This document shows positions 3,356 through 30,950 of a DNA stretch of 37,673 bases, piece by piece. Source of the stretch: a virus; the IMG/VR virus record IMGVR_UViG_3300048927_000734, positions 1-37,673 of that record; one strand, 5' to 3'. The notes below the pieces were generated by a model. It was not told the origin of the DNA. It saw only the letters and a program-made list of their open reading frames with translations, and did no database searches. A program made the position numbers and the translations under genes. Positions within the stretch are counted from its first letter, which is position 1. The number at the start of each line of letters is the position of its first letter.

Positions 3356-3364
3356 CGTCCTTCC

Positions 3365-15400: not shown

Positions 15401-15446
15401 AGTGGCGGACTGTGCCGCCGGCTTCGCGAACGCGCGCGGGTCTGGG

Positions 15447-15470
15447 CTTGTGAAAGCCCCGTTTCACAAG
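15447..15470 (-). promoter_or_regulatory. Late-promoter operator dyad upstream of V
   Basis: A perfect 9-bp inverted repeat, CTTGTGAAA-N6-TTTCACAAG, whose centre is 58 bases upstream of the V start codon. The same arms occur at 18886 and 30879 and nowhere else as a full pair. P2-family activators of the Ogr type bind a dyad centred near -55, which fits this site. The arms are A/T-rich and there is no T-tract, so it is not a terminator. Confidence 0.75.
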
Positions 15471-15476
15471 CTGGCG

Positions 15477-15719
15477 CTATTTGCTTTCGGCGGCAGAGGG
15501 GTCCGGCTCGGCCGGCGGGTTGGTGATGGCGCCGGCCGCAATCTTCACCTCGACACCGCGCGCGACGTCCGCGATCCGCGCTTCGGTTGCAGCGGCATCA
15601 TACTTGCCCTTGGCAGTCAGGCAGATGTTGACGTCGCGCGTGTGGGTGACGCCGGCATGCTCGAAGGTTACCGAGGCCTTGCCGGCGCCTAGGTCGGTGC
15701 TGTTGATCGTGGTTTTCAT
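15477..15719 (-). CDS. 80-aa protein following the tail fibre gene
   Basis: ATG at 15719 with GAAAGGACG in good register. It follows H by 17 bases and sits where P2-like phages often keep a tail-fibre assembly protein. Sequence: a short beta-rich start (STDLGAGKASVTFEHAGVTHTRDVNI), an Ala-rich helix and an unstructured acidic Pro tail. No similarity to known fibre chaperones that I recognise. Probably a fibre-associated small protein. Confidence 0.6.
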   Translation of the reverse strand: MKTTINSTDLGAGKASVTFEHAGVTHTRDVNICLTAKGKYDAAATEARIADVARGVEVKIAAGAITNPPAEPDPSAAESK

Positions 15720-15736
15720 GGTTCGTCCTTTCGAGA

Positions 15737-17384
15737 TCAGAAGCCGATGGCGTGCCAGTCGATGCCGTCGATCTGGTTGATCGAGGTGGAAGCGGCCGTG
15801 TACTGGACCATCAGCGTGCAGCCGCCGTTCGACTTGTCGATGCGCTGGATCGTGATGTCGTAGCGGTTGTTTCCGCTGGTGTTCACGGCCGTGGGTATGA
15901 TGTTGATCGAGTCCGGGAAGGTGAAGCCTACGGGGAAGTTGACCACCACCGGGCCTTCGCCGAACGGTCCCCAGACCGTGCCCCATTGTTCGATCACGCC
16001 GTTCGCGCGTCTCTCCCACCAGCCACGCTCATTCGATCCCACCGGGCTATCCGACTTCAGCACGAAGTCGGAGGCATGGCGCCCGTCGAGCAGATCCGCG
16101 TCCAAGCCGGAGCCCGAGCCATCGTTGCTCGCGTCCCACACGACCGCGGGGCCTCGGCTGAACCCGCCTGTCGCCTCGAAGAGGCCGAACCACCTGGCGT
16201 GATAGTCGGGCAGGAACTGGAACACGCCCCATTCGGCGGAGATGCTGGCGTCCGTCACCTGGAAATAGGCGACGCCTGATATCGGATTGCCGCGCAGGCG
16301 GATGCCGCCGCTCGTCTGGAAGTTCGGCGTGAGCGCGCTGATCGAGCCGTCGAAGTCCGTGCCAGCCTTGTTCGCGGGGGTGTACCCAAGGCGCCCCACG
16401 ACATCGGCGTAGTAGTTGCCTTCCTTCCCATCGAGCAGGTCCGCGTCGAGGCCCGAGCCGGAGCCATCATTCGACGCATCCCATACCCGCGCGCCGTTCC
16501 GGCTGAATTCACCCGTCGCCTCGAAGGTGCCGAGCCATTTCGCATGATAGCCAGGCGCAAACTGGAACACGCCCCATTGCGCGGTAAGATCGGCGTTGGT
16601 GATCTGGAAATAGGCCAGACCGGACTCAGCATTGCCGCGAAGCTTGATGCCGCCGCTCGTTCCATCATTGGGGGTTTGGGCGCTGATCAGACCGTCGAAG
16701 TCCTGCCCCGCCTTGTTGGCGGGCGTGTAGCCCAGGCGGCCGATGACATCGGCGTAATAAGCGCCCTGGCGCCCATCGAGCAGATCGGCGTCGAGGCCCG
16801 AGCCGGCGCCGTCGTTGCTGGCGCCAGATATCGCTGCCCCAAGCGGCAAAGCGCGCGGTGAGGGCGAAGCTAAGCCCCTTGGGTGTGATGGTGCGGCGAT
16901 CGTCGGTGCCGGCGCTGGTCTCCGCATCGGTCGCCAGCTCGGCGACGCCAGCCGTTTCGGTGGTCGCGGGCGGGTTGAGGAAGTCCGCGGACCCGAAGGT
17001 GATGTTGGTGGCGGCGATATCCGCGAAGCGCACGTCGAGCGCCAGCAGCAGCATGGCCTGGGCGGATTTCTCGACCAGCACGTCGCTCTGCCCATAAGCG
17101 GCGAACAGCGTGCCGTCAGAGAGGTAGAGCGCAATCGATCGCACGGCATATTGCGCGTTCGTCTCGTCGCGCACGGTGACGTGGATGGTGTCGGCCGCGA
17201 CGGCGTCGCCCGCGATCGTGGTGATCCGCTTGATCTCGCCGGGCAAAGCGTTGGTGGCGGCAGTAGGCGTGGTGGCGGTCGCGGACACGCCGACCGACGC
17301 GATGCGCACCGCATTGGTGCCATCCTTGGCGGCGTTGACGATCGCGGCGCGGCCCGCGTTGGTGACGGTGATGGTGAACGACAT
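15737..17384 (-). pseudogene. H: Tail fibre protein H, interrupted by a frameshift near 16823
   Basis: The N-terminal part (17384 to about 16827) is P2 gpH/phage tail-collar-like: FTITVTNAGRAAIVNAAKDGTNAV, YALRSIALYL-type strands, then ATDAETSAGTDDRRTITPKGLSFALTARFAAW. The remainder, to 15737, continues in another frame. It contains two full ~115-aa repeats (ASNDGSGSGLDADLLDG...GRLGYTPANKAG...WGVFQF...FEATG.FSR) plus a partial third, then a distinct C-terminal receptor-type domain with YDITIQRIDKSNGGCTLMVQY. At 16820-16827 the DNA reads ATCTGG-C-GCCAGCAAC, whereas the other repeats predict ATCTGG-GAC-GCCAGCAAC. Two bases are missing, so translation of frame 1 stops at 16665 after 239 residues. 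Without the lesion the fibre would be about 549 aa. Confidence 0.82.
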
Positions 17385-17398
17385 CGGCGGGGCTCCGA

Positions 17399-17941
17399 TC
17401 AGGCGGCGAACGCCAGGCGGGTGAAGACGAGGGGCCGCGCGACGGCGATGATGCCGGTCGCGCCGGTGAAGCGGAGCCCCTGGGTGAAGGTGAAGTGCGA
17501 GCGCACCGGCTTGGTGCGGCGCACCTCGTTGATCACGGCATCGGCGAAGGCGGCGGTGGCCGGCGCGCCGTCGCCGCCGCTCAGTTCCACCGCCATGGTG
17601 AAGGTGTGGGGCTCACCCGGCGGATCGAGCTGCCACCATTCGCGCAGCGCGACGGCGCCGCCGAACGATTCGACGACAGCGCGCACCGACGAGGCGGTGC
17701 CCTTGTGGCGCTGGATCTCGATCGCGCGGCGCACGCGGGAGCGCTTCACCGCTTCCGGCCAATCGCTCGACCAAGCGTCGATCGATACCGCCCAGGCGAG
17801 GAAGGGCAGGAGCGGCAGCGGGCAGGTGTCGGGGTTGATCAGGTCGCGCAACGGCACCGGCAGATCGCCGACGCGCGCGGTGGCCGCCTCGATCGCACGC
17901 TCAAGCGCGGTGACGTTCGGGGGAAGCAGGCTGCGGGTCAT
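17399..17941 (-). CDS. I: Baseplate/tail protein I
   Basis: 180 aa. The motif SLLPPNVTALERAIEAATARV and DLINPDTCPLPLLPFLAWAVSIDAWSSDWPEAVKRSRVRRAIEIQRHKGTASSVR are diagnostic of P2 gpI (phage tail protein I). It links fibre attachment to the baseplate wedge. It overlaps J (ATGA) and precedes H by 14 bases, as in P2. Confidence 0.95.
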   Translation of the reverse strand: MTRSLLPPNVTALERAIEAATARVGDLPVPLRDLINPDTCPLPLLPFLAWAVSIDAWSSDWPEAVKRSRVRRAIEIQRHKGTASSVRAVVESFGGAVALREWWQLDPPGEPHTFTMAVELSGGDGAPATAAFADAVINEVRRTKPVRSHFTFTQGLRFTGATGIIAVARPLVFTRLAFAA

Positions 17942-18840
17942 TCGCCGATGCCCCCATAGGTGACGGTGATGCCGGTGCAGAAGGCGGCCTGCGTCCGATC
18001 AACCACGACATCAGCCGCAGGAGCGGCAAGGGCGACATTCTGGACGCCCTCGGCGTGCAGGGCGGCGAAGATGCCGGAACGCGTCACGTCGAGCCCCAGG
18101 CGGTGCTGGCGGTCCCGATATTCCTCCACCCGGCGCTGCGCCTCGGCGAGCACGATCGAGCCATCGGGGCCGCTGTACGTCGTGAGCGTGGCGGTGATCT
18201 GGTAGGGGATAATGGTGGCGGACTGCACCGTCACTGCATCGGTGAGGGGGCGCACCGTCTCGGACGAGACGTGCGCTGCGATCTTGGCGAGCAGCTCGGG
18301 CGAGGCGGTGCCGTCGCCCAGGCGCGACAGGATGGTGACCAGCACTTCCCCAGGCGCAGGGCTGGTGGCGCTGGCGTCGAGAACATCGCCATCGGCCGAG
18401 CGGGCATGGTAGATATAGGCGCCCTCCGGCCCAGCGACCGAGAAGCCCTCGGGCGCCAGCACCAGGCGGGCACGAAGCGAGGCGTCATCCTCGAAGGTGG
18501 GCGGCACGTTGTTGGTGGGGTCGCCGGGATCCAGCTCGAGCCGGGTGACGTTCATCAGCGCGGCGAGGTGGTCCAGATCCGAGCCGGTAGCGAAGGCGGG
18601 CATCACGGCTTTCGCCGCGTCGTTGATCCGGCCGCGCAGCAGCAGCTCTCGATAGGCGGCGAGCTGCAGGATCATCACCGCCGGGTCGGATTCGACGGTC
18701 GCGTCGAAGTCGGGCTTCAACTCCAGCAATGCGGCGAGGATCTCGCCATAGATTTGCTCGAAGCTGAGCTGCTCGATCACCTTCGGCGCCGGCAGGCGCG
18801 AGAGATCGACTGCGGTGAAGGTTACGGAGCTATCGGCCAT
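17938..18840 (-). CDS. J: Baseplate assembly protein J
   Basis: 300 aa from the ATG at 18840 (the usual MADSSVTFTAVDLSRLPAP start); an in-frame ATG at 18849 exists. LLLRGRINDAAKAVMPAFATGSDLDHLAALMNV and GTASPELLAKIAAHVSSETVRPLTD are typical of P2 gpJ / gp6-like wedge proteins. It heads a J-I-H transcript whose putative late operator lies at 18886-18909. In P2, J follows W, but here W is downstream of H. Confidence 0.95.
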   Translation of the reverse strand: MADSSVTFTAVDLSRLPAPKVIEQLSFEQIYGEILAALLELKPDFDATVESDPAVMILQLAAYRELLLRGRINDAAKAVMPAFATGSDLDHLAALMNVTRLELDPGDPTNNVPPTFEDDASLRARLVLAPEGFSVAGPEGAYIYHARSADGDVLDASATSPAPGEVLVTILSRLGDGTASPELLAKIAAHVSSETVRPLTDAVTVQSATIIPYQITATLTTYSGPDGSIVLAEAQRRVEEYRDRQHRLGLDVTRSGIFAALHAEGVQNVALAAPAADVVVDRTQAAFCTGITVTYGGIGE

Positions 18841-18885
18841 GCCGCCCATGTCGCGGCGGCGCGGCTGTCGAGGCTAGCGGGGGCG

Positions 18886-18909
18886 CTTGTGAAAGGCGAG
18901 TTTCACAAG
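18886..18909 (-). promoter_or_regulatory. Late-promoter operator dyad upstream of J
   Basis: CTTGTGAAA-N6-TTTCACAAG, identical arms to the dyads at 15447 and 30879. Its centre is about 57 bases upstream of the J start at 18840, nearly the same distance as at V. This supports a common activator site and gives J-I-H a separate late promoter. Confidence 0.75.
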
Positions 18910-18961
18910 GTCAGCGGGAAGGGCCAACGGCCGAATGTGGTGGTTAGCTGCCGTTACGAGC

Positions 18962-19210
18962 CTACTTCTCGCGTGTTTCCACGACATGGAGGTTGAACGG
19001 CTTGCCCGAGATGTCCAAGGTGCAACCCCAAGCCTTTGCAACACCTGGCACAGGCTTGGGCGTCATTCTCATGAGATCACCAAAGGCGGGCTTCAACTCA
19101 GGAAATGAGGACGAAATCGGCGCAAGCAAGAAGCCGGTATAGTTGCTGCTTCTATCCTGAAACACTTTCGTGCTGCCATTATAAGACATGACGTACGTGT
19201 AGAGCGGCAT
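18962..19210 (-). CDS. 82-aa orphan cargo protein
   Basis: ATG at 19210 with AGAGGG about 9 bases upstream. The protein starts PLYTYVMSYNGSTKVFQDRSSNYTGFL, a short beta-meander, and ends in SGKPFNLHVVETREK. No family recognised. It sits at the J-side edge of the moron region, upstream of the late operator on the same strand but separated from J by the dyad. Composition is lower in G+C than the phage core genes. Confidence 0.62.
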   Translation of the reverse strand: MPLYTYVMSYNGSTKVFQDRSSNYTGFLLAPISSSFPELKPAFGDLMRMTPKPVPGVAKAWGCTLDISGKPFNLHVVETREK

Positions 19211-19279
19211 CGTTTTTTTCCCTCTGCACCGTGACGGTTGCATGTACGACGAAGTGCCCCCTCGATCAATGTCGCGCTT

Positions 19280-19378
19280 TGGGCGGGAGCGGAACGGCAG
19301 CTTTTTCATCCGAAGCGGAACGGCGGCTCCTGGCGCGGCCGGGGCACTGACCGGCCGAAAATGGTGGAAACCTGCCGA
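19280..19378. repeat. Intergenic repeat copy 1 (long form)
   Basis: About 100 bp, starting GGGCGGGAGCGGAACGGCAG, with AAGCGGAACGGCGGCT in the middle and GGCCGAAAATGGTGGAAA near the end. Long-form copies recur at 19851 and 21354. It separates the 82-aa gene from the DUF4279-like gene. Confidence 0.85.
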
Positions 19379-19422
19379 TGCACTTCCTAGCGGCGAGCAT
19401 CAATTGATGCGATTAGGCTGCT

Positions 19423-19839
19423 ATGGGCATACTGCATAAATCCGCCGCTACGATTGGCTTCTACGGTGATGATCTCGACCCCACAGCGATCACGGAGGCG
19501 TTGGGCGCCGAACCTACCGTCGGTGTTAGAAAAGGCGGTGTGTGGAAGACCAAGTCCGGAGCGGTAAAACCGGCGGTGACTGGATCGTGGAGGATCGAAG
19601 CTGGATACTGTGAGCCGGGTGATCTCGATGGCCAAATCAACGGCTTGCTTGACAGTTTGTCGGACGATCTAGTTGCATGGCGATCCTTTTCAAAGCGACA
19701 CCGTGGCCGGGCATTCTGTGGGCTGTTTCTCGACAGCGGGAACGAAGCTCTTACGTTACGGTCTGAGACGCTGTTGCGCCTCGGTGAGCGCGGGTTGCTG
19801 ATTGACCTCGACATCTACGGTTTGGATCGGCTTGATTAA
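19423..19839 (+). CDS. DUF4279-like orphan protein
   Basis: 138 aa. The pattern AATIGFYGDDLDPTAITEALGAEPTVGVRKGG, then TGSWRIEAGY, fits the DUF4279 family, whose members often occur as immunity-like or orphan proteins in polymorphic toxin loci and accessory regions. No toxin gene accompanies it here. Plus-strand, flanked by repeat copies on both sides. Function unknown. Confidence 0.72.
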   Translation: MGILHKSAATIGFYGDDLDPTAITEALGAEPTVGVRKGGVWKTKSGAVKPAVTGSWRIEAGYCEPGDLDGQINGLLDSLSDDLVAWRSFSKRHRGRAFCGLFLDSGNEALTLRSETLLRLGERGLLIDLDIYGLDRLD

Positions 19840-19850
19840 ACGTCCGCTTC

Positions 19851-19953
19851 TGGGGCGGGAGCGGACCGGCAGCTTTTTCATCCAAAGCGGAACGGCGGCT
19901 GCTGGCACGGTGGCGGCGCTGAGCGGCCGGAAATGGGTGGGAAGCGGTCATTC
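19851..19953. repeat. Intergenic repeat copy 2 (long form)
   Basis: About 103 bp, starting TGGGGCGGGAGCGGACCGGC and ending GGCCGGAAATGGGTGGGAAGCGGTCATTC. It supplies the stop codon of the convergent 123-aa gene (19948-19950). Confidence 0.85.
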
Positions 19954-20319
19954 AACAGTGAGCCGTTTGACCGCCGACCGCATGTCATCGCTTGTGAGTT
20001 GGTCGAGATCTGCCATCTCGATCAACCAAATTGCCTCGTTCACAGCATCGTCACCAAACTCGAAATCACCAAAAATGATGCAGGTGGCTGCGTAGTTGGC
20101 GGTTTCTAGGCTCAGGCGCTGTCCAGCCACAGCTTCCAGCAGCCGTCGCGCATGATCGCGCGTGATAATTGTGTCCGGCCCAGGTGTGATGACAACGCGC
20201 CCCTCACCAGTCTCATTGCAGGCCAAATTACATGCCCTGGCTTCGTCGGCCACTTCCTCGTCAAATTGCTCAGGCGTAAGTCTGCCTTCCAAAAAGGCCA
20301 CGAGTGAAGCGTGTTCCAT
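19948..20319 (-). CDS. 123-aa orphan acidic protein
   Basis: Begins EHASLVAFLEGRLTPEQFDEEVADEARAC, a helical acidic domain, and continues with VVITPGPDTIITRDHARRLLEAVAGQRLSLETANYAATCIIFGDFEFGDD. Overall it looks like a small acidic immunity-type protein but I do not recognise the family. Its last codons and stop lie inside repeat copy 2, so the reading frame may originally have ended differently. Confidence 0.65.
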   Translation of the reverse strand: MEHASLVAFLEGRLTPEQFDEEVADEARACNLACNETGEGRVVITPGPDTIITRDHARRLLEAVAGQRLSLETANYAATCIIFGDFEFGDDAVNEAIWLIEMADLDQLTSDDMRSAVKRLTVE

Positions 20320-20355
20320 CTCGATGAAATTAGCGACTTACCTAATGACCGCAAC

Positions 20356-20398
20356 TGGGGCGGCAGCCGCCACGGCGGAAAATGGGTGGTCAGCGAAC
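20356..20398. repeat. Intergenic repeat copy 3 (short form)
   Basis: About 43 bp: TGGGGCGGCAGCCGCCACGG then CGGAAAATGGGTGGTCAGCG. It has the ends of the long copies but lacks their middle, where a GGCAGCCGCC palindrome is left. It contains the stop codon of the 112-aa gene. Confidence 0.75.
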
Positions 20399-20728
20399 GT
20401 TTGGCGCGGCGGTGGGGACCTGCTCACCGAGCAAGCGAACCTCACTGCTGTTCGCAACGACATCACGCCCATCAAGCGTTCGCAATCCGAAGACCGCATC
20501 GCCGTCCGGATCGGTTACGTGGCGTTCGGCCTGCACCAGGATCGCAGGCACCTCCGCTTCATCAGTGTCATGCCACATAGCATATTGAGGCACCGCGACC
20601 TCGAACGGCTCGCTTTGTTGAGCATCGTCGCACTGCTGGCAGAAAACCGCGCTGCCCCTGTCGACATCGTGAACAGTCGCTGGACGGCCAGCGATAAAGC
20701 CCATTGTGGGAAGTGCAGGCCATGTCAT
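20390..20728 (-). CDS. 112-aa orphan protein with CxxC
   Basis: I prefer the internal ATG at 20728 (TWPALPTMGFIAGRPATVHDVD...) because the longer version (to 20782) starts inside a repeat copy. It contains FCQQCDDAQ and a C-terminal DPDGDAVFGLRTLDGRDVVANSSEVRLLGEQ. Possibly a small metal- or redox-linked protein. Family not recognised; stop codon is within repeat copy 3. Confidence 0.5.
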   Translation of the reverse strand: MTWPALPTMGFIAGRPATVHDVDRGSAVFCQQCDDAQQSEPFEVAVPQYAMWHDTDEAEVPAILVQAERHVTDPDGDAVFGLRTLDGRDVVANSSEVRLLGEQVPTAAPNVR

Positions 20729-20763
20729 TCGGTGACCATCGGCCCGACAATCAATGTCTGCAA

Positions 20764-20810
20764 GTGGGGCGGGAGCCGCCATGGCGGAAAATGGTGGAGA
20801 GCGGACAGTC
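20764..20810. repeat. Intergenic repeat copy 4 (short form)
   Basis: About 47 bp: GTGGGGCGGGAGCCGCCATG then GCGGAAAATGGTGGAGAGCGGACAG. Same organisation as copy 3. It separates the 112-aa gene (minus) from the 141-aa gene (plus). Confidence 0.75.
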
Positions 20811-20878
20811 TGCGTACGGGTGTCGACGGGCGGAAAGCTGCCGTTGCACCGAACGCCCTAGGCTGGCAGCATAAAGCC

Positions 20879-21304
20879 ATGCGAGTTGATCCTTCTGAAT
20901 ATATGCAGCTGCGGTCTTGGTTCAGCCATATGGTTCCTAAGGTCTTTCCATCGGACCTGCTGACCCCTGACACTCATCCGATTGCTATTCTCGATGCAAT
21001 GGCAGTGAAAACCCCCGCCAAGGCGCGGAGCGGCTTAGGTATGGCAATCGGGGACATTCTCGAGTTTACGAGTGACTGGCCCACCAGCGACGTGACCGCG
21101 TGCGACCACGAGCTTTCGCAATCGGGATTGCCGACATTGTCGGCAGTGCGCGCGAGGTTTTCTAAGCTGGTGCAGCGAGTTGTTCGCCGGGGTCAGATCA
21201 AGAGCGAGGATGAGTTCTACGCCCTCCGCAACGCAGTCGAGCAGCAGTGCGCGGACTCAGCAAGCCTGTGGCCGCTACTCGCGGCATACGAGGCGCGAAA
21301 CTGA
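20879..21304 (+). CDS. 141-aa orphan helical protein
   Basis: ATG at 20879; the same frame is open upstream but that part is low-quality sequence crossing other genes. The protein (DPSEYMQLRSWFSHMVPKVFPSDLLTPD..., GMAIGDILEFTSDWP..., LQRVVRRGQIKSEDEFYALRNAVEQQ) is mostly helical. The ending IKSEDEFYALRNAVEQQCADSAS resembles small immunity-like or contact-dependent accessory proteins. No firm family. Confidence 0.62.
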   Translation: MRVDPSEYMQLRSWFSHMVPKVFPSDLLTPDTHPIAILDAMAVKTPAKARSGLGMAIGDILEFTSDWPTSDVTACDHELSQSGLPTLSAVRARFSKLVQRVVRRGQIKSEDEFYALRNAVEQQCADSASLWPLLAAYEARN

Positions 21305-21353
21305 CCGGCGACCGCTTTCGGGTAACCCAAGCGCTGACCTAAACGACTAGGTT

Positions 21354-21454
21354 TGGGGCGGCAGCGGACCGGCAGCTTCTCCCTCCGAAGCGGAACGGCG
21401 GCTCCTGCCAGGAGCGCGGCGCTGATCGGCCGAAAATGGTGAGAAGCTGCCACT
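21354..21454. repeat. Intergenic repeat copy 5 (long form)
   Basis: About 100 bp: TTGGGGCGGCAGCGGACCGG..., AAGCGGAACGGCGGCTCCTG, then GGCCGAAAATGGTGAGAAGC. It matches copies 1 and 2 over its full length and lies between the 141-aa gene and the membrane protein gene. Confidence 0.85.
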
Positions 21455-21459
21455 CAGAC

Positions 21460-21738
21460 TCAGGTTCCCGCGTCTCTAAAAAGCGGAACAACAACGCCGC
21501 GAAGGCAAGACGCAACGGTCGCGGTCAAGAGCCAAACAAAGGCGAAAATATTCAAGGTGTCGGCGACCTGCGAGGAAATAGGCGCCGAGATATTCACTCC
21601 GACCGCATGCAGCCCCAATATTGCAAATGCGCCATAACTTGCTGATCTCGCCTTTTCGACTGAGATACGGCCGGAGGCTATCATCGTTAGGCCGAGGGCG
21701 GCCAGGCCAAGTGCCACCGTGGATGTAATCTCCGTCAT
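21460..21738 (-). CDS. 92-aa membrane protein
   Basis: ATG at 21738 with a strong GGAGGT site 7 bases upstream. Likely two or three membrane segments: ITSTVALGLAALGLTMIASG, ASYGAFAILGLHAVGVNI and LNIFAFVWLLTATVAS. Function unknown; small membrane morons can alter phage adsorption or exclusion, but nothing specific is visible. Confidence 0.65.
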   Translation of the reverse strand: MTEITSTVALGLAALGLTMIASGRISVEKARSASYGAFAILGLHAVGVNISAPISSQVADTLNIFAFVWLLTATVASCLRGVVVPLFRDAGT

Positions 21739-21796
21739 CTAAGTGACCTCCCGGACCAGTTGGGCGTCAAGCTGCCATAGATGTGCAATGTCCGAA

Positions 21797-21816
21797 AGTG
21801 GGGCGTTAGCGGTCAG
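21797..21816. repeat. Intergenic repeat fragment (copy 6)
   Basis: AGTGGGGCGTTAGCGGTCAG is a short relative of the repeat ends. It abuts the stop of tail gene S (21813) and marks the right boundary of the cargo array. A GGCGTTAGCGGACAG relative also occurs near 36400. Confidence 0.5.
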
Positions 21817-22481: not shown

Positions 22482-22879
22482 TCGCAGAGCCGCGGCTCGG
22501 GCAGGTGCACGGCGTTGAAGCCGCCTTCCGCCAGCGCTTGCACCGATACCGCCTCTGTCAGCTCGATCCATAGCGACACGTCCGCCGAATCGGCGTCGAG
22601 GAGTTCGGACTCGAAGCGGAAGGGCTCCTGCTGGCCCGCCTCCAGCAGCTCGGGCTGCGCTTCGGCGATCCAGGCGAGAATTGGCACCATGAGACCATCG
22701 ATCGAGCCGGCATAGTCCTGCACGACGATGTTGAGCGTGTAGCGATACTCGAAGGACAGCCCGCCGGGCCGCGCGGCAACGCGGCCCTTGTCGACGAAGA
22801 GGCTGAGCTTCGAGGGATCTGCGCCGAGCTGGGGCACATGGGCCAGCAGCACGCGGCGCAGGGTATCCGGCTTTTCCAT
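22478..22879 (-). CDS. R: Tail completion protein R
   Basis: 133 aa from the ATG at 22879 (MEKPDTLRRVLLAHVPQLGADP...). LSLFVDKGRVAARPGGLSFEYRYTLNIVVQDYAGSIDGLMVPILAWIAEAQPELL matches P2 gpR. It lies next to S as in P2, with the spike gene inserted directly upstream. Confidence 0.93.
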   Translation of the reverse strand: MEKPDTLRRVLLAHVPQLGADPSKLSLFVDKGRVAARPGGLSFEYRYTLNIVVQDYAGSIDGLMVPILAWIAEAQPELLEAGQQEPFRFESELLDADSADVSLWIELTEAVSVQALAEGGFNAVHLPEPRLCE

Positions 22880-22892
22880 CGTGTTCGGCCGC

Positions 22893-25355
22893 TTACGAGG
22901 TTGCGCGGAATACACCCGTGCCGCCGATGCGGACGGTGGCACCGATGTTGACGGGCGAGCTTGTCGGGTTGACGAAGAGGATCTCGCAGATGACCTGAAT
23001 CTGCTGGATCGCGGCGATGTTCTGGTTCTGCGCCACGAGGTTGGGATCCTGAAGGTCCATCAGCTCGGTCATGTCCGTGCGCCAGACACCCGCCGCATCG
23101 AGGTACGCGTTGAGCGCACCGCCCGCGAGGTTGGATGCGCCGACGCGCGCATACGCACTCATCGACCGCGACGCCGTGGTATCCTGCACGATCAGCTTGA
23201 GGCCGACCGACTGCAGATACTGCGAGCCGAGCTCGACCTTGGACGTCATCATCGCCCGCAGCTTGTCGTTGATCGACAGGAGATTCCCCGACAGCAGCGT
23301 CGTCAGAGCCGAGCCGGCGATCAGCTGGTAGAACTGGATGCCGACGTTCGCGTTCGCTGCGATGGTGCCGGAGAAGTCCATTTTGCAGACGCCCAGGCCG
23401 TTCGGGTCTGTCTCGACGCCCTTTTCCGCAACGCAGACGATCCCACTCGATCCATTCGGCGCTGCCAAGGCCCACTTCTCAGGCACACCCGTTGCGAGCG
23501 GCGCGGTGCCCCACGTACCAATGACCTGGCCGTTGTTGCCCGACGTGAGGATCGGATTGCTGTTGACGAACGGCTGCGGCGCAGCCGGGTTGCTGATCCC
23601 ATTTGCGGTCGGCAAGGGGATCTTGGACGGGATGGCATCCCAAGCGGCCTGGCCCCATGCCGCTTTGAGCCGGTCGACCACAACCTGCATTTTCCGCATC
23701 GAGCCATAGGGCGTGTCGTGCAGGCCATCGCGCAGATAGCCGCGCTTGTTGTTGTAGATCGGCGGGGCGGGCGTATCCGCGAACTCATCCCAGGTATTGG
23801 CAACGATGACGTTGGCCCGCGCCTTGGCATCGCCACTCGCATAATCGTACTTCATGAGCGCGCGGCTGAAGTTGTAGCGATCCGTCGAATCGCCGCCACC
23901 GTTCTGCGTCGCCCCGGTGTGGTCGATACCGCGCGGCTGCTCGTTGCACAGCACAATCACGACGCCGGTGCCGATGTTATTCATGATCGTCTCGACGTAG
24001 CCGAGCTGGTCAGCGACGGACCCGCTCGGCCAATTCGTGCCTGCGAGGATCATGACGATACCGGCGCCGTGGCTCTTGACGAAGGCTGCGCCCTTATTGC
24101 CGGCATAGTTGCTCGAGGAGCCCGGCCGATCCCAACGCCCTGCGGTAGCATTGCCGAGAGCGTCGAGACGAGGCTCTTGGGCCATCTGCTGGAGCGTCGA
24201 GGCAGAGATGCCGAAGTTCGGGTAGCGGCCGAGCCGGAGCTTGCCGCCGGAAATCGTGTGCAGCCAGCCCGCATAGCCGATGTTCTTCGTGCCGAAGCTG
24301 TAGCCATTGGCCTGCGACGCATTCGAACTCACGCCGTCTTCCGTTCGGCTATCGCCGAAGAAGAGCGTGTCATAGTTGGCCGGGATCGGGGCGGACGGGC
24401 CGGAAACCGCCGTGATCGTCAGCGCGAAGGTCGCACCGTTAGCGCCGCTCGCAGCCACCGCGATGTTGACGGTGCCCGCGCTGATCGCAGCGTTGCCCAG
24501 CACCACAACCCAGCCCGTGCCTGCACTGCCGGCGACAACGAAGCGTCCGTCGTTCGGGGTGAGCGTCGGCGTGACGCCGGCGGGCACGTTGCCGATCGTC
24601 GCGAGCTGATAGCCCGCCGCCGCGTTGGCGGGGATGGAGGCGCTGCTCGGCGTGAGGCTGAGCGTCGGCAGATCGTCATTGCTGATCGTGCCGGTGCTGG
24701 TGACGGTGTTCAGGCCAGAGGCGGTGACCGTGAGGGTGAAGGCCTCATCCGGTTCGACGGCCGTATCCCCGCTCACCTGCACGGTGATCGTCTTGGTCGT
24801 TTCGCCTGCCGCGAAGGTGCCGCTACCGCTGGGGAAGGTGCCGCCGAAGTCCGCGGCGTTCGCCGGGCTGCTCCCCGTGCCCGTCACCGCCCAGGTGAAC
24901 GGATAGGCGGCCGTCGAGCCGTCCCGGTTGAGCGTGAGCGTCCAGGTGAAGGCGGTGGTGCCGGAGTTGCCCTCGGCCTTGGTCACCGCGCTCGACAGGC
25001 TGAGCGAGGGCTGCGGCGTCGGGGCAGGCGTCGGCGTCGGGGTGGGCGTCGGCGTGCTCACCACAGCCGGGTTCAGCAGGGCGGTAAGGCCCGTGGCCGA
25101 CGTGCCGGTCAGGTAGACCTTGCGGAAGCGGATCGCGATCGTCTGCCCGCTGGCGATGGCGATCGTGCGGTCATTGCCGGCGGCCGTCTTCAACTTCACC
25201 GCGCCGGCATTGCCGCCGCAGGCAAGGCCCACGGCTTCCTGCGCCAGGTCGGCATTGTCGTTCGCGACGATCGGCATGGCGTCGGTCGCGGGCGCGAGGG
25301 CCTGCAGCGCGGACAGCATCTGCGTCTGCAGTTCGGCGGTGGCGGCTTTTGCCAT
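22893..25355 (-). CDS. Virion spike with Calx-beta-like region and SGNH/GDSL hydrolase domain
   Basis: 820 aa. Residues 1-95 (VKLKTAAGNDRTIAIASGQTIAIRFRKVYLTGTSAT) resemble the spike-base domains of alphaproteobacterial phages and gene transfer agents. A (PT)n linker follows at 100-116. Residues 117-230 look like a Calx-beta strand set (AEGNSGTTAFTWTLTLNRDG... DEAFTLTVTAS... TGTISNDDL), then an Ig-like region (230-320). Residues 328-570 form an SGNH hydrolase: LFFGDSR (G334-D335-S336), NFGISAS, MILAGTN (G439-N441) and DGLH (D543-H546). The C-terminal 230 residues are likely a trimerisation or receptor region. Such a domain would de-esterify or deacetylate surface polysaccharide. It sits among lysis and tail genes in the late operon, which argues for a virion role. 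Confidence 0.82.
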   Translation of the reverse strand: MAKAATAELQTQMLSALQALAPATDAMPIVANDNADLAQEAVGLACGGNAGAVKLKTAAGNDRTIAIASGQTIAIRFRKVYLTGTSATGLTALLNPAVVSTPTPTPTPTPAPTPQPSLSLSSAVTKAEGNSGTTAFTWTLTLNRDGSTAAYPFTWAVTGTGSSPANAADFGGTFPSGSGTFAAGETTKTITVQVSGDTAVEPDEAFTLTVTASGLNTVTSTGTISNDDLPTLSLTPSSASIPANAAAGYQLATIGNVPAGVTPTLTPNDGRFVVAGSAGTGWVVVLGNAAISAGTVNIAVAASGANGATFALTITAVSGPSAPIPANYDTLFFGDSRTEDGVSSNASQANGYSFGTKNIGYAGWLHTISGGKLRLGRYPNFGISASTLQQMAQEPRLDALGNATAGRWDRPGSSSNYAGNKGAAFVKSHGAGIVMILAGTNWPSGSVADQLGYVETIMNNIGTGVVIVLCNEQPRGIDHTGATQNGGGDSTDRYNFSRALMKYDYASGDAKARANVIVANTWDEFADTPAPPIYNNKRGYLRDGLHDTPYGSMRKMQVVVDRLKAAWGQAAWDAIPSKIPLPTANGISNPAAPQPFVNSNPILTSGNNGQVIGTWGTAPLATGVPEKWALAAPNGSSGIVCVAEKGVETDPNGLGVCKMDFSGTIAANANVGIQFYQLIAGSALTTLLSGNLLSINDKLRAMMTSKVELGSQYLQSVGLKLIVQDTTASRSMSAYARVGASNLAGGALNAYLDAAGVWRTDMTELMDLQDPNLVAQNQNIAAIQQIQVICEILFVNPTSSPVNIGATVRIGGTGVFRATS

Positions 25356-25356
25356 T

Positions 25357-25680
25357 TCAACGGGTCTCCGGTTCGGGCTTGCAGGTTCCAGGGGCGATCC
25401 ATTCGATCAGGCGCCGGAACCGGGCACGCTCATCGCGATCGTGAAGCACCAGGCCGCGCAGGGCGTCGCGCAGCGGTGCGGGGATGGTGGCGACCTGATC
25501 GGTCGGGAAGGCGGGCGGCGGTGCGGGGCAGACGAGCAGGTCGGCAGACGGCGTGTCCTTCACCGCCAGCGCCACGACGTCCGCCGGGCGGTGCTCAATC
25601 GTGGGGCTGCAGCCCGCCAAGGCGGTTGAGAGCAGCAAACCAGCTGCCATCGACGCGGTCATCATCGCGAACCTGCGCAT
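25357..25680 (-). CDS. Rz1-like o-spanin lipoprotein
   Basis: 107 aa from the ATG at 25680. It has a signal peptide with a lipobox (LLLSTALAGCS), followed by a Pro-containing periplasmic part (VCPAPPPAFPTDQ). The first 86 bases overlap the end of the i-spanin gene in another frame, a common Rz/Rz1 arrangement. It disrupts the outer membrane together with the i-spanin. The 107-aa length is longer than classical Rz1 but normal for P2-like LysC-type proteins. Confidence 0.82.
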   Translation of the reverse strand: MRRFAMMTASMAAGLLLSTALAGCSPTIEHRPADVVALAVKDTPSADLLVCPAPPPAFPTDQVATIPAPLRDALRGLVLHDRDERARFRRLIEWIAPGTCKPEPETR

Positions 25681-26113
25681 CGGCTTTCTCCATGGTGGTG
25701 AGGGCGGCGGCCCGGGTTTCGGACTCGGCCTGGGCGGTGGTGCGGTCGCGGGTGGCCTTGGCCTGCTGCTCGGCGGCGGCGGCGGCGAGCACGCGCGCGG
25801 TGCTGGTGAGAGTGGCGGCGCGGAAGGCGGCGAGATCCTGCACCGCCTCGCTGCAGGCGGCACCGCGCTGCAGCTTCACCTGGCGGCGCTTGCCGGCGGC
25901 GTCCACGCGCTCGACGGTAGCCGCCTCGGGCGTGGCGCCGGCATAGGCGCAGGTGGCCTTCGCCCAGGCCGCCCAGGCGTCGCGATCGGCGTGGGTGCGG
26001 CGATCGTCGACGTACAGGGCGGCGAGCGCGAGCCCGAGGGCGATCAGGACGAGCCAGCTATTGCCCGCCCAGGCGTGGAGCGCCTTGAAGGCGCCGACGA
26101 TCAGCTTGATCAT
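25595..26113 (-). CDS. Rz-like i-spanin
   Basis: 172 aa from the ATG at 26113 (ATGA overlap with the endolysin). An N-terminal membrane segment (NSWLVLIALGLALAALYV) is followed by a long helical periplasmic region rich in Ala, Gln, Glu and Arg (coiled coil AAAAEQQAKATRDRTTAQAES). This is the layout of LysB/Rz i-spanins that bridge to the o-spanin. Confidence 0.85.
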   Translation of the reverse strand: MIKLIVGAFKALHAWAGNSWLVLIALGLALAALYVDDRRTHADRDAWAAWAKATCAYAGATPEAATVERVDAAGKRRQVKLQRGAACSEAVQDLAAFRAATLTSTARVLAAAAAEQQAKATRDRTTAQAESETRAAALTTMEKADAQVRDDDRVDGSWFAALNRLGGLQPHD

Positions 26114-26592
26114 ACGGTTCCCTTTTCCATCATGACGGCCAGGCGCTCGGCGCGCGCGCCGACCTGGCGCGCCCAGAGCGAGGCGCGCATGCCGGCGGCG
26201 GCGGCGGCGAAACGGCCTGCTTCCATCGCGGCGAGCGTGTTCTTGAAGGGGAGCAGGCGCGTGATGCCGAGGTTGAAGCACATGTTGAGCAGCACCCTCT
26301 GGCGCACGTCGTTGAGGGTGCGCCACCAGGGCAGCTTGGCGTCGAGCTGGCGTTCGCATGCGTCGATGTCGTTCGTGAGCAGTGCGCGGGACTGCGGCCG
26401 CGTGAGGCCGTTCGCGCAGACGCTCGCAACGGTGATGCCCAGCGCCGCAGTCTCCGCCTTGGAGATGCCGACGTCGTCGAGGTTGCGGCCGACGCCGATC
26501 GTCCGCTTGTTCGCGGTGCAGCGGTAGACCTTGAGCTTTTCGTTCTCGTCGCGGATCAGCTCGGCGGTGAGGGCGGCGCGATCGTAGCTCAC
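26110..26592 (-). CDS. Endolysin (T4-like lysozyme, E-C-T catalytic triad)
   Basis: 160 aa. The gene starts at GTG (26592), overlapping the holin stop as GTGA. The muramidase motif is RDENEKLKVYRCTANKRTIGVGR, giving E16-x8-C25-x5-T31. This is the T4/P21-type E-x8-(D/C)-x5-T triad with Cys replacing Asp. The C-terminal half (NMCFNLGITRLLPFKNTLAAMEAGRFAAAA... WARQVGARAERLAVMM) is the typical phage-lysozyme helical lobe. No SAR segment visible, so release depends on the holin. It degrades peptidoglycan at lysis. Confidence 0.93.
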   Translation of the reverse strand: MSYDRAALTAELIRDENEKLKVYRCTANKRTIGVGRNLDDVGISKAETAALGITVASVCANGLTRPQSRALLTNDIDACERQLDAKLPWWRTLNDVRQRVLLNMCFNLGITRLLPFKNTLAAMEAGRFAAAAAGMRASLWARQVGARAERLAVMMEKGTV

Positions 26593-26933
26593 TGCTCGCC
26601 TCCCTTGCCCAGGAAGCGGTCGCGCAGCGTTGCCGGGATGGTGCCGGCGACGTCGGCCGCCGCTGCGATGAACCGCGGCGTCGCCTCGAAGGCGATCATG
26701 CCGATCGTGAAGGCGATGCCCTGCAGCACGAAGGGATCGAGCGTCCAGATCGCGCCGATCGCGCGGCCGACGAACCACGAGACGACGATGCCCACGGCGA
26801 GCTGGGTAAAGCGCTCGCGCCAGGTGAGCCCCTTGCGCCAGGCGAGCGCCACGGTGGCGCCGATCGCGCCGGGGGCAATGCCCGACGCGAATGCGCAGAA
26901 CGCGTCGAGCAAGGCCATGATCTTCTGTTCCAT
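26589..26933 (-). CDS. Holin
   Basis: 114 aa from the ATG at 26933, which has GGAG 6 bases upstream; a TTG start at 26945 is less likely. It has up to three membrane segments: FCAFASGIAPGAIGATVALAW, FTQLAVGIVVSWFVGRAIGAIW and FVLQGIAFTIGMIAFEA. The C-terminus is charged. It lies between tail gene X and the endolysin, the position of P2 gene Y, and should control lysis timing. Confidence 0.85.
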   Translation of the reverse strand: MEQKIMALLDAFCAFASGIAPGAIGATVALAWRKGLTWRERFTQLAVGIVVSWFVGRAIGAIWTLDPFVLQGIAFTIGMIAFEATPRFIAAAADVAGTIPATLRDRFLGKGGEQ

Positions 26934-26935
26934 GG

Positions 26936-27151
26936 TCAACTCCAAAGCTGGACCGTCTCGCGCACCGGCTGAGCCTGGGCGGCGATCGGGGGGAGGGTGA
27001 CCGGCGTGCCGATCGGGAGGGTGGGGCCGCGATCGGCGAGGCCGGGATTGGCGGCGAGCACGGCATCGAGCGCCTCGGGGCCGAGCCCGCGCTCGCGCCA
27101 GAGCAGCTCGTCCAGCGTGTCGCCCTGGCGCGCGGTGAGCAGGTCCGCCAT
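26936..27151 (-). CDS. X: Tail protein X
   Basis: 71 aa from the ATG at 27151, overlapping L (TGATG). The compact LysM-like fold is clear: LTARQGDTLDELLWRERGLGPEALDAVLAANPGLADRG, then LPIGTPVTLPP. It matches P2 gpX. Order L-X-holin-endolysin is P2-like. Confidence 0.93.
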   Translation of the reverse strand: MADLLTARQGDTLDELLWRERGLGPEALDAVLAANPGLADRGPTLPIGTPVTLPPIAAQAQPVRETVQLWS

Positions 27152-27624
27152 CAGAGCAGCTCCACGCTGGTGCGGGTGCGGCCGAGGATCCGGCGAACGG
27201 CTTGCAGCGCGTCGCGGCGCAGCTCGCCAGTCGAATCGTCCAGCTCGTCCACCTTGCGCTGGCCGGCGCCGGTCAGGTCGACGTCGCGCTGCCGCTCGAT
27301 CAGCAGCGCCTTGGCGCAGGCGCCCACGGCGAGCTGGTACAGCACGACGTTGCGGCTCAAGCCGTCGACGGTGGAGCTGGGCACCTCGGCGAAGCTGGCG
27401 GCGGCCTGCTCGGCGCGCCAATCCTCGAGCTGGTCGTTGGTCCAGATGATCGCTTCGCGCACCGCGTCGCGCAGGCGCTCCGCCGGCATCTCGGCGGGGA
27501 TGCGGCGCGCCTTGCGCAGGTCGGCAACGTCGACGTCGGGAAACCAGCCGTCATTGACGATCGGCGCGCCATCTGGCGCGGCGGGCGGCGGCGTGAGGAT
27601 GGGGGAGCAGGCGAAGGTGCTCAT
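27151..27624 (-). CDS. L: Head completion/stabilisation protein L
   Basis: 157 aa from the ATG at 27624, overlapping the upstream 62-aa gene as ATGA. NDGWFPDVDVADLRKARRIPAEMPAERLRDAVREAIIWTNDQLEDWR is a P2 gpL signature. gpL binds the capsid vertex to complete the head and accept the tail. The 62-aa gene inserted before it is absent from P2. Confidence 0.93.
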   Translation of the reverse strand: MSTFACSPILTPPPAAPDGAPIVNDGWFPDVDVADLRKARRIPAEMPAERLRDAVREAIIWTNDQLEDWRAEQAAASFAEVPSSTVDGLSRNVVLYQLAVGACAKALLIERQRDVDLTGAGQRKVDELDDSTGELRRDALQAVRRILGRTRTSVELL

Positions 27625-27809
27625 GCCAGCACCGACGACGCGGCGGCTTTCACGCAAAGCACAAAGCCAAAAGCGCCGAGCACGACGATCGAGGCAGTTT
27701 CGAACCGGGTGCGAATGCTTTCAGCGAAGAGGAAGTAGATCGACGCCCCGAGGACCGCAGCGGTGCAGAGCGCCAACCCGATGGCGAGCAGCATGTAAAT
27801 AATGAGCAT
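27621..27809 (-). CDS. 62-aa membrane protein between M and L
   Basis: ATG at 27809 with AAGGAG 8 bases upstream; the stop overlaps the L start. It has two hydrophobic segments (LIIYMLLAIGLALCTAAVLGASIYFLFA and ASIVVLGAFGFVLCVKAAASS). Function unknown. Because it is in a late head-gene operon but is not part of the P2 core, it is an insertion, perhaps a lysis-timing or superinfection-related moron. Confidence 0.72.
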   Translation of the reverse strand: MLIIYMLLAIGLALCTAAVLGASIYFLFAESIRTRFETASIVVLGAFGFVLCVKAAASSVLA

Positions 27810-27904
27810 GGGCCGGGCTCCTTCGGTGGCGTCCCCGGCAAACGGGGGTGGGGACCGGGTCCGCGACGGCCCTCAGCCCGAAGGCCCTCCCGTTGCGCGC
27901 GATC

Positions 27905-27925
27905 CGCCCCCGAGCGCCGGGGGCG
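27905..27925 (-). terminator. Hairpin downstream of small terminase gene
   Basis: A perfect 7-bp inverted repeat, CGCCCCC / GGGGGCG, with a 7-nt loop, located just after the M stop. No T-tract, so it may only reduce or process the message before the 62-aa insertion. Confidence 0.35.
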
Positions 27926-27931
27926 AGCTGG

Positions 27932-28798
27932 TTAGGCGCCCTGCTGGGACGCCGGTTCGGTGGTGGCGGGAGCGGCGGCGTCGAGCAGCTTCTCCAGCTT
28001 TTTGATGTTGCCCTTCACGCCTGCGCGCTCGTCGAGCTGGTGCGCGCGGCGCAGGGCATCGAGCGCCATGCCGAAGGCCGGGCGCTGATCGTCGGCCGAG
28101 AGCAGCGCCTCGGCCGCGAGCGCGGTTTCCTGGCCGATCGCCTTGTAGAGCTTGGCGCGGATCTGATCGTGCATGTCCGCGTCTGCGGTGAGGATCTCGA
28201 TATCGGTGAGGATGCCCAGGTCGAAGCGGGTGCCGGCGCCTTGCGCCTTGATCGCGGCGGTGGCGATCTCCTCGGTTACCAGCGCGGGCGTGGTGCGTTG
28301 ATAGCGCGCCGGCATCGCCAGATCGTGGCGCAGCATGTACTCGGCCAGCTCGACCGCGCCGCGATATTCGCCCACGTCGATCAGCCAGACCATGATGGTG
28401 GGGATCACTTCGTCCGCGACCGTCTTGCCGGCCTCGGCCGCCGCCGCCAGGCGCGCCATCACCCATTCGCGGTAGGCGGGCAGCATCTCGCGCTTGGCCT
28501 CGATCTTCTTCTCGATCGACTGGATCGCCTTGAGCCGGCGCATGTCGTGCACGAGGCGCAGCATGATCTGGGCATCGGGGCCTTCGCCGAGCGACGAGTC
28601 CAGGGTGGCGGGTTCTTCGATCGCCGCCCGCGCCGCGTGCTGCAGCTTGTGCAGGCGCGCGGGGCTGGCGGAGACGATAGGGGAGGCGAGCAGGGGTTCC
28701 TGCCCGCCCTCGCCCTCCGGCGCGGCAACGACGATGCTGGTGTGATTGGGCTTGGCCGAGGCGGCGAAGCGGTCACGATGCTGGCGAGCTGGGCTCAT
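27932..28798 (-). CDS. M: Small terminase subunit M
   Basis: 288 aa from the ATG at 28798 (SPARQHRDRFAAS), upstream extension rejected. The C-terminal three quarters are typical of P2 gpM: MLRLVHDMRRLKAIQSIEKKIEAKREMLPAYREWV, VIPTIMVWLIDVGEYRGAVELAEYML and PARYQRTTPALVTEEIATAA. It recognises cos DNA and acts with P to cut and package the genome. The Ala/Thr-rich tail is probably disordered. Confidence 0.94.
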   Translation of the reverse strand: MSPARQHRDRFAASAKPNHTSIVVAAPEGEGGQEPLLASPIVSASPARLHKLQHAARAAIEEPATLDSSLGEGPDAQIMLRLVHDMRRLKAIQSIEKKIEAKREMLPAYREWVMARLAAAAEAGKTVADEVIPTIMVWLIDVGEYRGAVELAEYMLRHDLAMPARYQRTTPALVTEEIATAAIKAQGAGTRFDLGILTDIEILTADADMHDQIRAKLYKAIGQETALAAEALLSADDQRPAFGMALDALRRAHQLDERAGVKGNIKKLEKLLDAAAPATTEPASQQGA

Positions 28799-28850
28799 GG
28801 TGCGTTCCGGTGCTGGGGTGGGTGAGGGCGGGCAGACTTGACGCAGGTCC

Positions 28851-29909
28851 TCAGACCTTCGGGCCAAGCTTGATGTTCTCGACCAGGGCGGCCTTGCCGT
28901 ATTCCTCGACCACGAAGCCGTCGTTGACGCTCTCGTAGTTGGCGATCTGGTCGTAGGCCGATTCCTCGACGATGTTGCGGCGCGCCGAACCCTTCTGCTG
29001 ATAGTAGGACAGGTTGCTCAGGCTGGTGACCATCAGCGCATTGGCCGGGAAGTTCGGCACCTGCATGGTCGGCTTGCCGCCGAGCTGGCGGCTCGACAGG
29101 ATCACGTCGCGCGCGACGATCTCGGTCGCCGTGTTGCCGGCCTCGCTCACGATCTTGAAATACTTCTCGTGAACAAGGTCGCTGCCGACGATCACCACCA
29201 GGTCAGTCGCACCGCGGAACTGCTCGTGCAGCAGGTTGTGGACGACGTCGAAGACGAGAGCGTCGAGGTTCTCATAGTCGGCGTCCCCGGTATCCGAGAC
29301 GTAGACCTTGAGCCCATCCTTGCTGCCGTGCGACATCACGCGCTGAGGCGCATAGGTCCGCATCTTGTAGAGCCAACCATAGTTGACGTCCTGCAGCAGC
29401 GGATAGGCGACGCGGTCGGTCTGCGGCTTGGCGTCCACACCGTTGAAGCCGATCGTGATGATGTCCTGCGCCTTCTGCACCAGCACGGCATCGCGGCAGA
29501 GCTGCTGGAATTCCGGGCGATGCGCCCAGGCGTCGAGCAGTGCGTAGGGCCACGCATAGTCGTAGTCGGTCTTCTTGCAGATATACTGATCGATGGCGTC
29601 GCTACCGAACGGGCTGGTCGGGCGGCGGCGGTTGCCGGGGACCGACAGGTCGGTGCGGCTTGCGAGCGAGCGGGTTACACCAACGCCGACGCGGTCGCCC
29701 ATCTGCTCGACCACCGAAATCACGTTGATCCGCGAAAGAAAATCGCTGGTGGTCTGCAGCTTGGCGAGCAGCTTCTGCTCGATCGCGGGGGCAACCGCAA
29801 ACTTCTTGATCTCGGTAGAGCCGTTCAGGAAGAAATTGCCGTCCAGGTTGTTCAGCTTGGCGAGCTGCCCAAGGTACGAATTGAACAGCACGCGGGTCTG
29901 ATTCTGCAT
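28851..29909 (-). CDS. N: Major capsid protein N
   Basis: 352 aa, the usual length for P2 family gpN. It has QTRVLFNSYLGQLAKLN at the N-terminus, TDLSVPGNRRRPT, YAWPYALLDAWAHRPEFQQL, ITIGFNGVDAKPQTDR and SYYQQKGSARRNIVEE. These motifs are highly characteristic. The ATG has GGAG upstream in good spacing. It is processed by the O protease in P2. Confidence 0.96.
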   Translation of the reverse strand: MQNQTRVLFNSYLGQLAKLNNLDGNFFLNGSTEIKKFAVAPAIEQKLLAKLQTTSDFLSRINVISVVEQMGDRVGVGVTRSLASRTDLSVPGNRRRPTSPFGSDAIDQYICKKTDYDYAWPYALLDAWAHRPEFQQLCRDAVLVQKAQDIITIGFNGVDAKPQTDRVAYPLLQDVNYGWLYKMRTYAPQRVMSHGSKDGLKVYVSDTGDADYENLDALVFDVVHNLLHEQFRGATDLVVIVGSDLVHEKYFKIVSEAGNTATEIVARDVILSSRQLGGKPTMQVPNFPANALMVTSLSNLSYYQQKGSARRNIVEESAYDQIANYESVNDGFVVEEYGKAALVENIKLGPKV

Positions 29910-29967
29910 GGAAAGTGCTCCGGGGTGCGGGGGAGGGGCTCGGGCGGTGGGGTGAGGTTGCGGGCGA

Positions 29968-30231
29968 TCAGCAGTCGGTGAGGTGCTGGCCGGCGCCGCC
30001 GCTCGCCGGCGGGCGGCTGAACCCGGCGGGCGTGGTTTCGAGCTGGCCCTTCATGGTCGCCATCTCGGTACGAACTTCGCTGACCGCATCGAGGGCCGGC
30101 TTCACCGCCGCCGCGACTGCATCGCCCATCGCCTTGGTGAACGCGGCGAAGTCCATGTTGTCATTCGCGGGCGCGGGCGCGGGCGAAGGGGCCGGTGCCG
30201 GCGGGGGCGTGCCGGGCTCGTCGGTGGTGCG
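29968..30231 (-). CDS. O: C-terminal (scaffold) part of capsid protein O, downstream of an in-frame amber codon
   Basis: In the same frame as the O protein, codons continue without another stop from 30231 to TGA at 29968. A flexible linker follows the amber codon (RTTDEPGTPPPAPAPSPAPAP), then a helical segment FAAFTKAMGDAVAAAVKPAL... EVRTEMATMKGQLETTP. That is the usual C-terminal scaffold domain of P2-like gpO. An internal ATG at 30156 could start a 62-aa product. The segment is probably expressed by suppression or readthrough of the TAG, by internal initiation, or not at all. Confidence 0.75.
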   Translation of the reverse strand, partial: RTTDEPGTPPPAPAPSPAPAPANDNMDFAAFTKAMGDAVAAAVKPALDAVSEVRTEMATMKGQLETTPAGFSRPPASGGAGQHLTDC

Positions 30232-30789
30232 CTAGAACATGTCGGCGAGCTTCGAGAAGCCGGCGACGATCGCATCAGTGACCCCTGCCGTGCCCTGCTC
30301 GAATTCGATCGCGACGGCCTGATCCGAGGCGCTGAAAATGGTGCCCGGCGCGGTGCGCGAGAACTGCAGCTTCTGGGTAGCGATCGAGGCGGGGGTATCG
30401 GTGAAGGCGAGGCCGACCAGGCCAACCTTCCCGCTGCCGGCATAGTCGGGGGTCAGCTCGACGGACGGAAACGGCTTCTGGCCAGCGGCCGAGAGCTTCA
30501 CCAGCTGATCGTTGCCCTCGACCTGCACATAGAGTGCGCGGCGCTTCTCGGTCTTGCCGGCGATCGAGATCTCATCGTCCTGCGCCTTGACGGCGGCGAC
30601 GTCGCCATAGCCGTTGAAGGGCGGTTCGGGGCTGTAGCCGGCGATATGTTCGATATTGATGCGCGGCGAATAGGTGTCGCGGTTGAAGGTCGCGACCACG
30701 TCGTCGATCATCTCGTCGGTGATGGTGCGGCCGTCGCTGATCGTCTGGCCGGCGACGAAGGCGCGGAAGAACTTGGAGAGTTTGGCCAT
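30232..30789 (-). CDS. O: Capsid protease/scaffold protein O, N-terminal part ending at amber TAG
   Basis: 185 aa. AKLSKFFRAFVAGQTISDGRTITDEMIDDVVATFNRDTYSPRINIEHIAGYSP is diagnostic for P2 gpO. The serine-protease residues known from P2 (D19, H48, S107) correspond to D19, H48 and S109 (FPSVEL) here, so the protease half is intact. P2 gpO is about 284 aa; here translation should stop at a TAG (complement of CTA at 30232-30234) before the scaffold domain. The frame continues open to 29968. Divergent from P, with a late operator between. Confidence 0.9.
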   Translation of the reverse strand: MAKLSKFFRAFVAGQTISDGRTITDEMIDDVVATFNRDTYSPRINIEHIAGYSPEPPFNGYGDVAAVKAQDDEISIAGKTEKRRALYVQVEGNDQLVKLSAAGQKPFPSVELTPDYAGSGKVGLVGLAFTDTPASIATQKLQFSRTAPGTIFSASDQAVAIEFEQGTAGVTDAIVAGFSKLADMF

Positions 30790-30878
30790 GGCGGTGCTGG
30801 TCCCTGCGTGATCGAGCCGAGGCGGCGTTTGACCAGGCGAACAGGGACCGGATTGGCATCTCTTCTCAAGCGAGCGCC

Positions 30879-30902
30879 CTTGTGAAATGCCCGTTTCACA
30901 AG
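30879..30902. promoter_or_regulatory. Late-promoter operator dyad between O and P
   Basis: CTTGTGAAA-N6-TTTCACAAG in the 161-bp divergent region. Its centre is about 60 bases upstream of the P start and about 101 upstream of the O start. It has the same arms as the V and J sites, and extends to CCCTTGTGAAA / TTTCACAAGGGG here. One dyad appears to serve both directions, whereas P2 uses separate P and O promoters. Confidence 0.75.
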
Positions 30903-30950
30903 GGGCGGCGCTCAGTGAGGGGGCTCAGGCATGGCTAGGTTCGGGGCGCC

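Follow-up and report, generated by a model that had tools for sequence, protein, structure and literature searches.

Three identical dyads as likely operators of an Ogr-like late activator in a P2-like prophage of Sphingomonas

Three identical inverted repeats, CTTGTGAAA-N6-TTTCACAAG, stand before V, before J and between O and P in a P2-like prophage, and they are very likely to be the operators of the phage's own Ogr-like C4 zinc-finger activator, which would make the genes behind them a late regulon. In the proposed mechanism, Ogr subunits would bind two half-sites (consensus CTTGTGAAA, TGT-N14-ACA) about 55 bp upstream of the late starts, and bound Ogr would recruit host RNA polymerase to promoters with merely weak -10-like elements. 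The site between O and P would act both ways, allowing three sites to switch on the four late operons. Transcripts of V, J and P would begin at, or no more than ~3 nt from, the start codon, and that of O would have a leader. Across alphaproteobacterial P2-like phages, operator sequence and spacing drift together with Ogr. A sequence-only reading of this DNA had already proposed an Ogr-dependent late regulon, and the proposal is supported here by recurrence of the dyad at three promoters, by covariation with Ogr and by a P2-like distance to a -10-like element.

The window, i.e. the whole 37,673-nt stretch analysed, comes from an IMG/VR virus record and contains the dyad in exactly the three copies originally claimed (Table 1), whereas none is expected from 100 dinucleotide-preserving shuffles, and no fourth copy was found in it at up to 3 mismatches. 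Each copy has perfect 9-bp arms and a 6-nt centre, and can be written as TGT-N14-ACA or TGTGA-N10-TCACA. Among 2.9 million viral contigs the exact dyad occurs in only 7 stretches, all relatives of the window phage, and always at V, J or O/P. Structural genes were named via PHROGs, giving V, W, FI, FII, tape measure, U, D; J, I, tail fibre; O, N, M; and P. There is a dyad at every late operon, one being common to divergent O and P, and by this layout the three dyads cover four late operons, namely those of V and J and the divergent pair O and P. The nearest whole-genome relatives of the Ogr-like gene are in Sphingomonas, so that the window, with its host assigned by kinship, is a P2-like prophage of that genus. 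Three exact dyads are also present in S. pokkalii L3B27.

Table 1. Positions of the activator gene, the dyads and the late promoter elements and genes in the window.
Feature	Position	Strand	Basis or remark
Ogr-like zinc-finger late activator, 101 aa	2111..2416	-	PF04606, phrog_603, translation
V, baseplate assembly protein, opening its late operon; Shine-Dalgarno absent; mRNA probably leaderless	14849..15400	-	phrog_9992; Shine-Dalgarno test over relatives
V promoter, -10-like CACAGT	15409..15414	-	~44 bp from dyad centre; predicted from centre-aligned promoters of 45 phages
Putative operator dyad, V-W-FI-FII...D operon	15447..15470	.	centre 58 bp from V GTG (15400)
J, baseplate protein	17938..18849	-	phrog_4226, phrog_6
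Putative operator dyad, J-I-H operon	18886..18909	.	
O, head scaffolding protein / protease, opening the O operon	30232..30789	-	phrog_73
O promoter, predicted -35 TTGAGA	30864..30869	-	21-26 bp from dyad centre
Putative operator dyad common to divergent O and P promoters	30879..30902	.	
P promoter, -10-like TAGGTT, within GCTAGGTTC	30936..30941	+	same distance in 32/50 phages; fits Zymomonas TANNNN -10 (PMC7566282)
P, terminase large subunit	30951..33170	+	phrog_3746, E 3e-124; ATG 30951 60 bp from dyad centre

The Ogr-like protein has the cysteine motif attributed to it from the translation, C11-x2-C14-x22-C37-x4-C42, and belongs to the Ogr/Delta family by its matches to PF04606 Ogr_Delta (39.9 bits, cutoff 26.3) and phrog_603 (E 2.6e-17). 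No convincingly sequence-related solved structure was found for it, and an AlphaFold model with a mean pLDDT of 50.6 was left unused. Its codon 31 (window 2324-2326) encodes Gly (TIGEARL), at a position occupied by Arg or Lys (TIREARL) in nearly every aligned relative; one base substitution could account for the difference, and the window's own Ogr copy may be impaired.

Relatives were assembled from 80 loci collected by terminase P; an Ogr-family gene is carried by 41 of 45 records searched, and 39 records were read; 27 further Ogr-bearing prophage regions were taken from host-order genomes. For each phage the search was for a single inverted repeat common to the regions upstream of P, J and V, with the threshold set at the 99th percentile of controls. 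Of 64 phages or prophages, 53 have such a repeat; real promoter sets score 4.75 on average, compared with 2.40 for shuffled sequence, 2.72 for internal genes and 2.99 for promoters mixed across phages. The dyad thus recurs in related prophages at the same three promoters, the first of the checks put forward with the original claim. The promoter search gave no shared dyad in the other 11 of 64, mostly distant relatives with other operon orders (among them G042, G043, G047, G048 and G050). Dyads in N345 and N369b were discarded in spite of scores above 3.5, since their positions were implausible.

Within one phage all six half-sites are one sequence, which varies between phages: CTTGTGAAA, CTTGTAGAA, TCGTGTAGAAA, CCTGTGGAA, GGTGTGGCG, GCAATCGTAGAG, CATATGGAGAGG, CATTTGGACAG, CATCGGGCGAGA and others. 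The operators of G028 and G039 differ by just one base per half-site. The G of TGT is the single nearly invariant operator base (42/43). Spacing varies as well: the window's group has TGT-N14, most relatives have N13, and N12 occurs in one subclade, the Ogr of which has C-x5-C (sequence CRNPDACGH). The view that TGT-N14-ACA in place of TGT-N12-ACA marks a diverged specificity is well supported.

The position of the dyad is also conserved. Its centre lies 54-58 bp from the V start in 41/45 phages, and a -10-like element lies 42-44 bp from the centre in 42/50 V promoters; about 44 bp downstream of the centre the sequence is CATGGTC-like at V promoters and CTAGGTTC-like at P promoters. The list of -10 motifs was picked after the promoters had been inspected, and it is therefore the constant distance, not the motif match, that carries the -10 argument. 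Promoters of Zymomonas, which is related to the host, combine a TANNNN -10 with a 6-bp discriminator, and its transcripts can be leaderless (PMC7566282). Applied here, that spacing predicts transcription from the start codon itself or from a base no more than ~3 nt away, at 55-58 bp from the dyad centre. Measured to the predicted leaderless starts the distance is 55-60 bp, and to the -10-like element ~44 bp; both would fit a dyad centred near -55. The centre-to-start distances first reported for V, J and P (58, 57 and 60) hold for V and P, while that for J requires the second of two in-frame ATGs (18840, 57.5 bp from the centre; 18849 lies at 48.5 bp).

Shine-Dalgarno-like 4-mers are nearly missing from the first genes (V 1/20, J 0/12, P 1/8, few P and J being scorable); they are present in FI (22/22), FII (32/32), N (31/33) and O (27/31). 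V, J and P lack a Shine-Dalgarno, so their mRNAs are probably leaderless, and it is only because they appear so that the distance from dyad centre to start codon can be read as the distance to the transcript start. W and I also lack a Shine-Dalgarno, and are probably translated via coupling to the preceding gene.

The O side of the O/P site is built differently: unlike V, J and P, O shows a predicted -35 element and leader and carries a Shine-Dalgarno. In 28/35 phages CTTGAG occurs 20-21 bp from the dyad centre in the direction of O; the sides facing P, J and V never have it. An O transcript start ~55 bp from the dyad centre would make it a fitting -35 element and would give a leader of ~46 nt. 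This conserved O promoter facing the O/P dyad was absent from the sequence-only reading.

Covariation between operator and regulator distinguishes Ogr from the other regulators of the phage. Operator similarity correlates with Ogr identity at r = 0.62 (final set, n = 43), and no other gene correlates as strongly; the partial correlation of operator with Ogr given structural genes is 0.40, compared with 0.10 in reverse (n = 43); arm sequence therefore covaries with the Ogr-like protein, as had been proposed as a check. None of 5000 label permutations reaches the partial of 0.40; permutation leaves relatedness in, however, and the comparison between genes is for that reason the stronger argument. 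Given Ogr, the partial with the operator is 0.06 for the adjacent gene, 0.12 for the CI-like gene and 0.00 for the Cro-like gene, and Ogr retains 0.54-0.56 once either the CI-like or the Cro-like gene is included. These values bear on the possibility that the dyads are operators of a CI-like or Cro-like repressor that silences the late promoters directly in the lysogen. Perfect palindromes are typical of helix-turn-helix repressors and the phage encodes both a CI-like (3365-3772) and a Cro/YdaS-like (2901-3281) protein, but neither follows the operator as Ogr does, no dyad lies within the immunity intergenic region (3281-3365), and ~44 bp upstream of a -10-like element is the activator position of P2 Ogr sites; a repressor is accordingly very unlikely. 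Given Ogr, structural genes still contribute 0.1-0.36 to operator similarity. Nearest-neighbour prediction of the operator was no better from Ogr than from the backbone (0.796 vs 0.791), a tie expected because the two are correlated.

Assignment of the dyads to Ogr also agrees with the pattern in one close relative, G003, which is ~90% identical to the window and to G001 over P, FI, V and W, with identity falling to 63-65% across the zinc-finger region of Ogr. Its operators, CTTGTA-type and imperfect, are different at all three sites, although the DNA from operator to P start is nearly unchanged. Its CI-like (36%) and adjacent (48%) genes are diverged as well as Ogr, and the whole is as expected if a regulatory block had been exchanged and the distant operators had followed. 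The operators of L138/L139 (G003), imperfect and differing, are possibly mid-re-tuning.

G000 and G003 share a host genus and a backbone ~90% identical and have different dyads, which argues against recognition by a host regulator (CRP/FNR-like or other) that the phage exploits. The TGTGA half-site does resemble that of CRP, but TGTGA-N10-TCACA is neither TGTGA-N6-TCACA nor TTGAT-N4-ATCAA. Moreover, the abundance in host genomes that had been named as evidence against the regulon is absent: in 20 Sphingomonadales genomes (~80 Mb) all exact dyads lie within P2-like prophages (G053, G055), and a search at 2 mismatches adds only G427 (its prophage) and one unplaced G051 site. A host regulator would be most surprising. 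RNA or DNA hairpins, e.g. terminators of the upstream operon, deserve almost no credence: the V dyad does lie a few bases past the stop codon of the upstream reading frame and would form a 9-bp stem with a 6-nt loop, but there is no T run at the dyad, the O/P dyad lies between divergent genes with no transcript needing an end, base pairing does not demand that six arms per phage be alike, and dyad position relative to start codons is conserved.

With Ogr as the likely partner of the dyads, the predictable operator code that the sequence-only reading anticipated stands in part. Covariation of the whole site is clear and mutual information between Ogr columns and operator positions is strong, but the residue-to-base rules are mostly clade-level, suggestive only, and not transferable to P2. 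On the backbone tree the strongest residue-base pairs are essentially single clade-level changes, each with one same-way and one uninformative independent pair. The only recurrent rule pairs Arg at the R-X-S position with G at operator -1, in 3/3 independent pairs, too few for significance, and G014 has G at -1 without the Arg. A clade rule linking Tyr34 to T at -3 was rejected, as it fails in P2. An evolvable Ogr code in alphaproteobacterial P2-like phages is a tentative idea, possible rather than probable: residues 22, 23 and 34 of the zinc-finger hairpin (101-aa protein) would set the operator bases, the length of the second zinc knuckle would set half-site spacing, and three distant operators would be re-tuned at each activator change. 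If true, such re-tuning would separate the late regulons of prophages or satellites that are co-resident.

The mechanism is already known from P2, the late promoters of which (pP/pO, pV, pF) depend on a C4 zinc-finger activator of the Pfam family to which the window protein belongs, with a dyad ~55 bp upstream of transcript starts that are mapped in P2 and predicted in the window. In the P2 record (NC_001895) sites lie 55-59 bp from mapped starts, V transcription begins at the first base of the gene, and pO and pP use a single site, as proposed for O/P in the window. P2 sites are, however, imperfect and TGT-N12-ACA/CCA-like, and P2 groups V-W-J-I-H-G into one operon with F in a second, whereas J and V-W-F are separate operons in the window. 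Stenotrophomonas phage Smp131 (PP', PO', PJ', PV') is closer in layout, with a J operon, a V...D operon and one site common to divergent O and P, and its Ogr-like protein shares the cysteine motif, but its predicted sites were matched to TGT-N12-ACA (PMC3931495). The window dyads fall outside this P2/Smp131 class.

As far as the literature was searched, subscription journals lying outside it, the TGT-N14-ACA operator class and a covarying operator set in alphaproteobacterial phages are new. The classic activator, of the same Ogr/Delta family as P4 delta and phage 186 B, is hereby extended from a few experimentally studied enterobacterial cases to ~45 matched activator-operator sets, from which a recognition code of C4 zinc-finger activators could be worked out. 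Furthermore, these sets could be used for late-promoter prediction in uncultured alphaproteobacterial prophages and as orthogonal activator-promoter pairs for Sphingomonas and Zymomonas, and leaderless late mRNAs are predicted.

Ogr and immunity genes close to those of the window phage also occur without the normal late genes nearby, in L213, with no late genes within 10 kb (a remnant or satellite), and in L212, where they are joined to the C-terminal part of P (a deleted prophage). In the window itself, two plus-strand genes between the immunity region and D (4735-8055), encoding a 289-aa protein without assignment and an 816-aa TPR-repeat protein, appear to be cargo, with no clear defence match. 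A cassette-like array of small minus-strand ORFs without family matches occupies 18962-21815; between the ORFs lie imperfect copies of a ~99-nt repeat (19278, 19850, 21353) and shorter related copies (19838, 20343, 20752, 21786).
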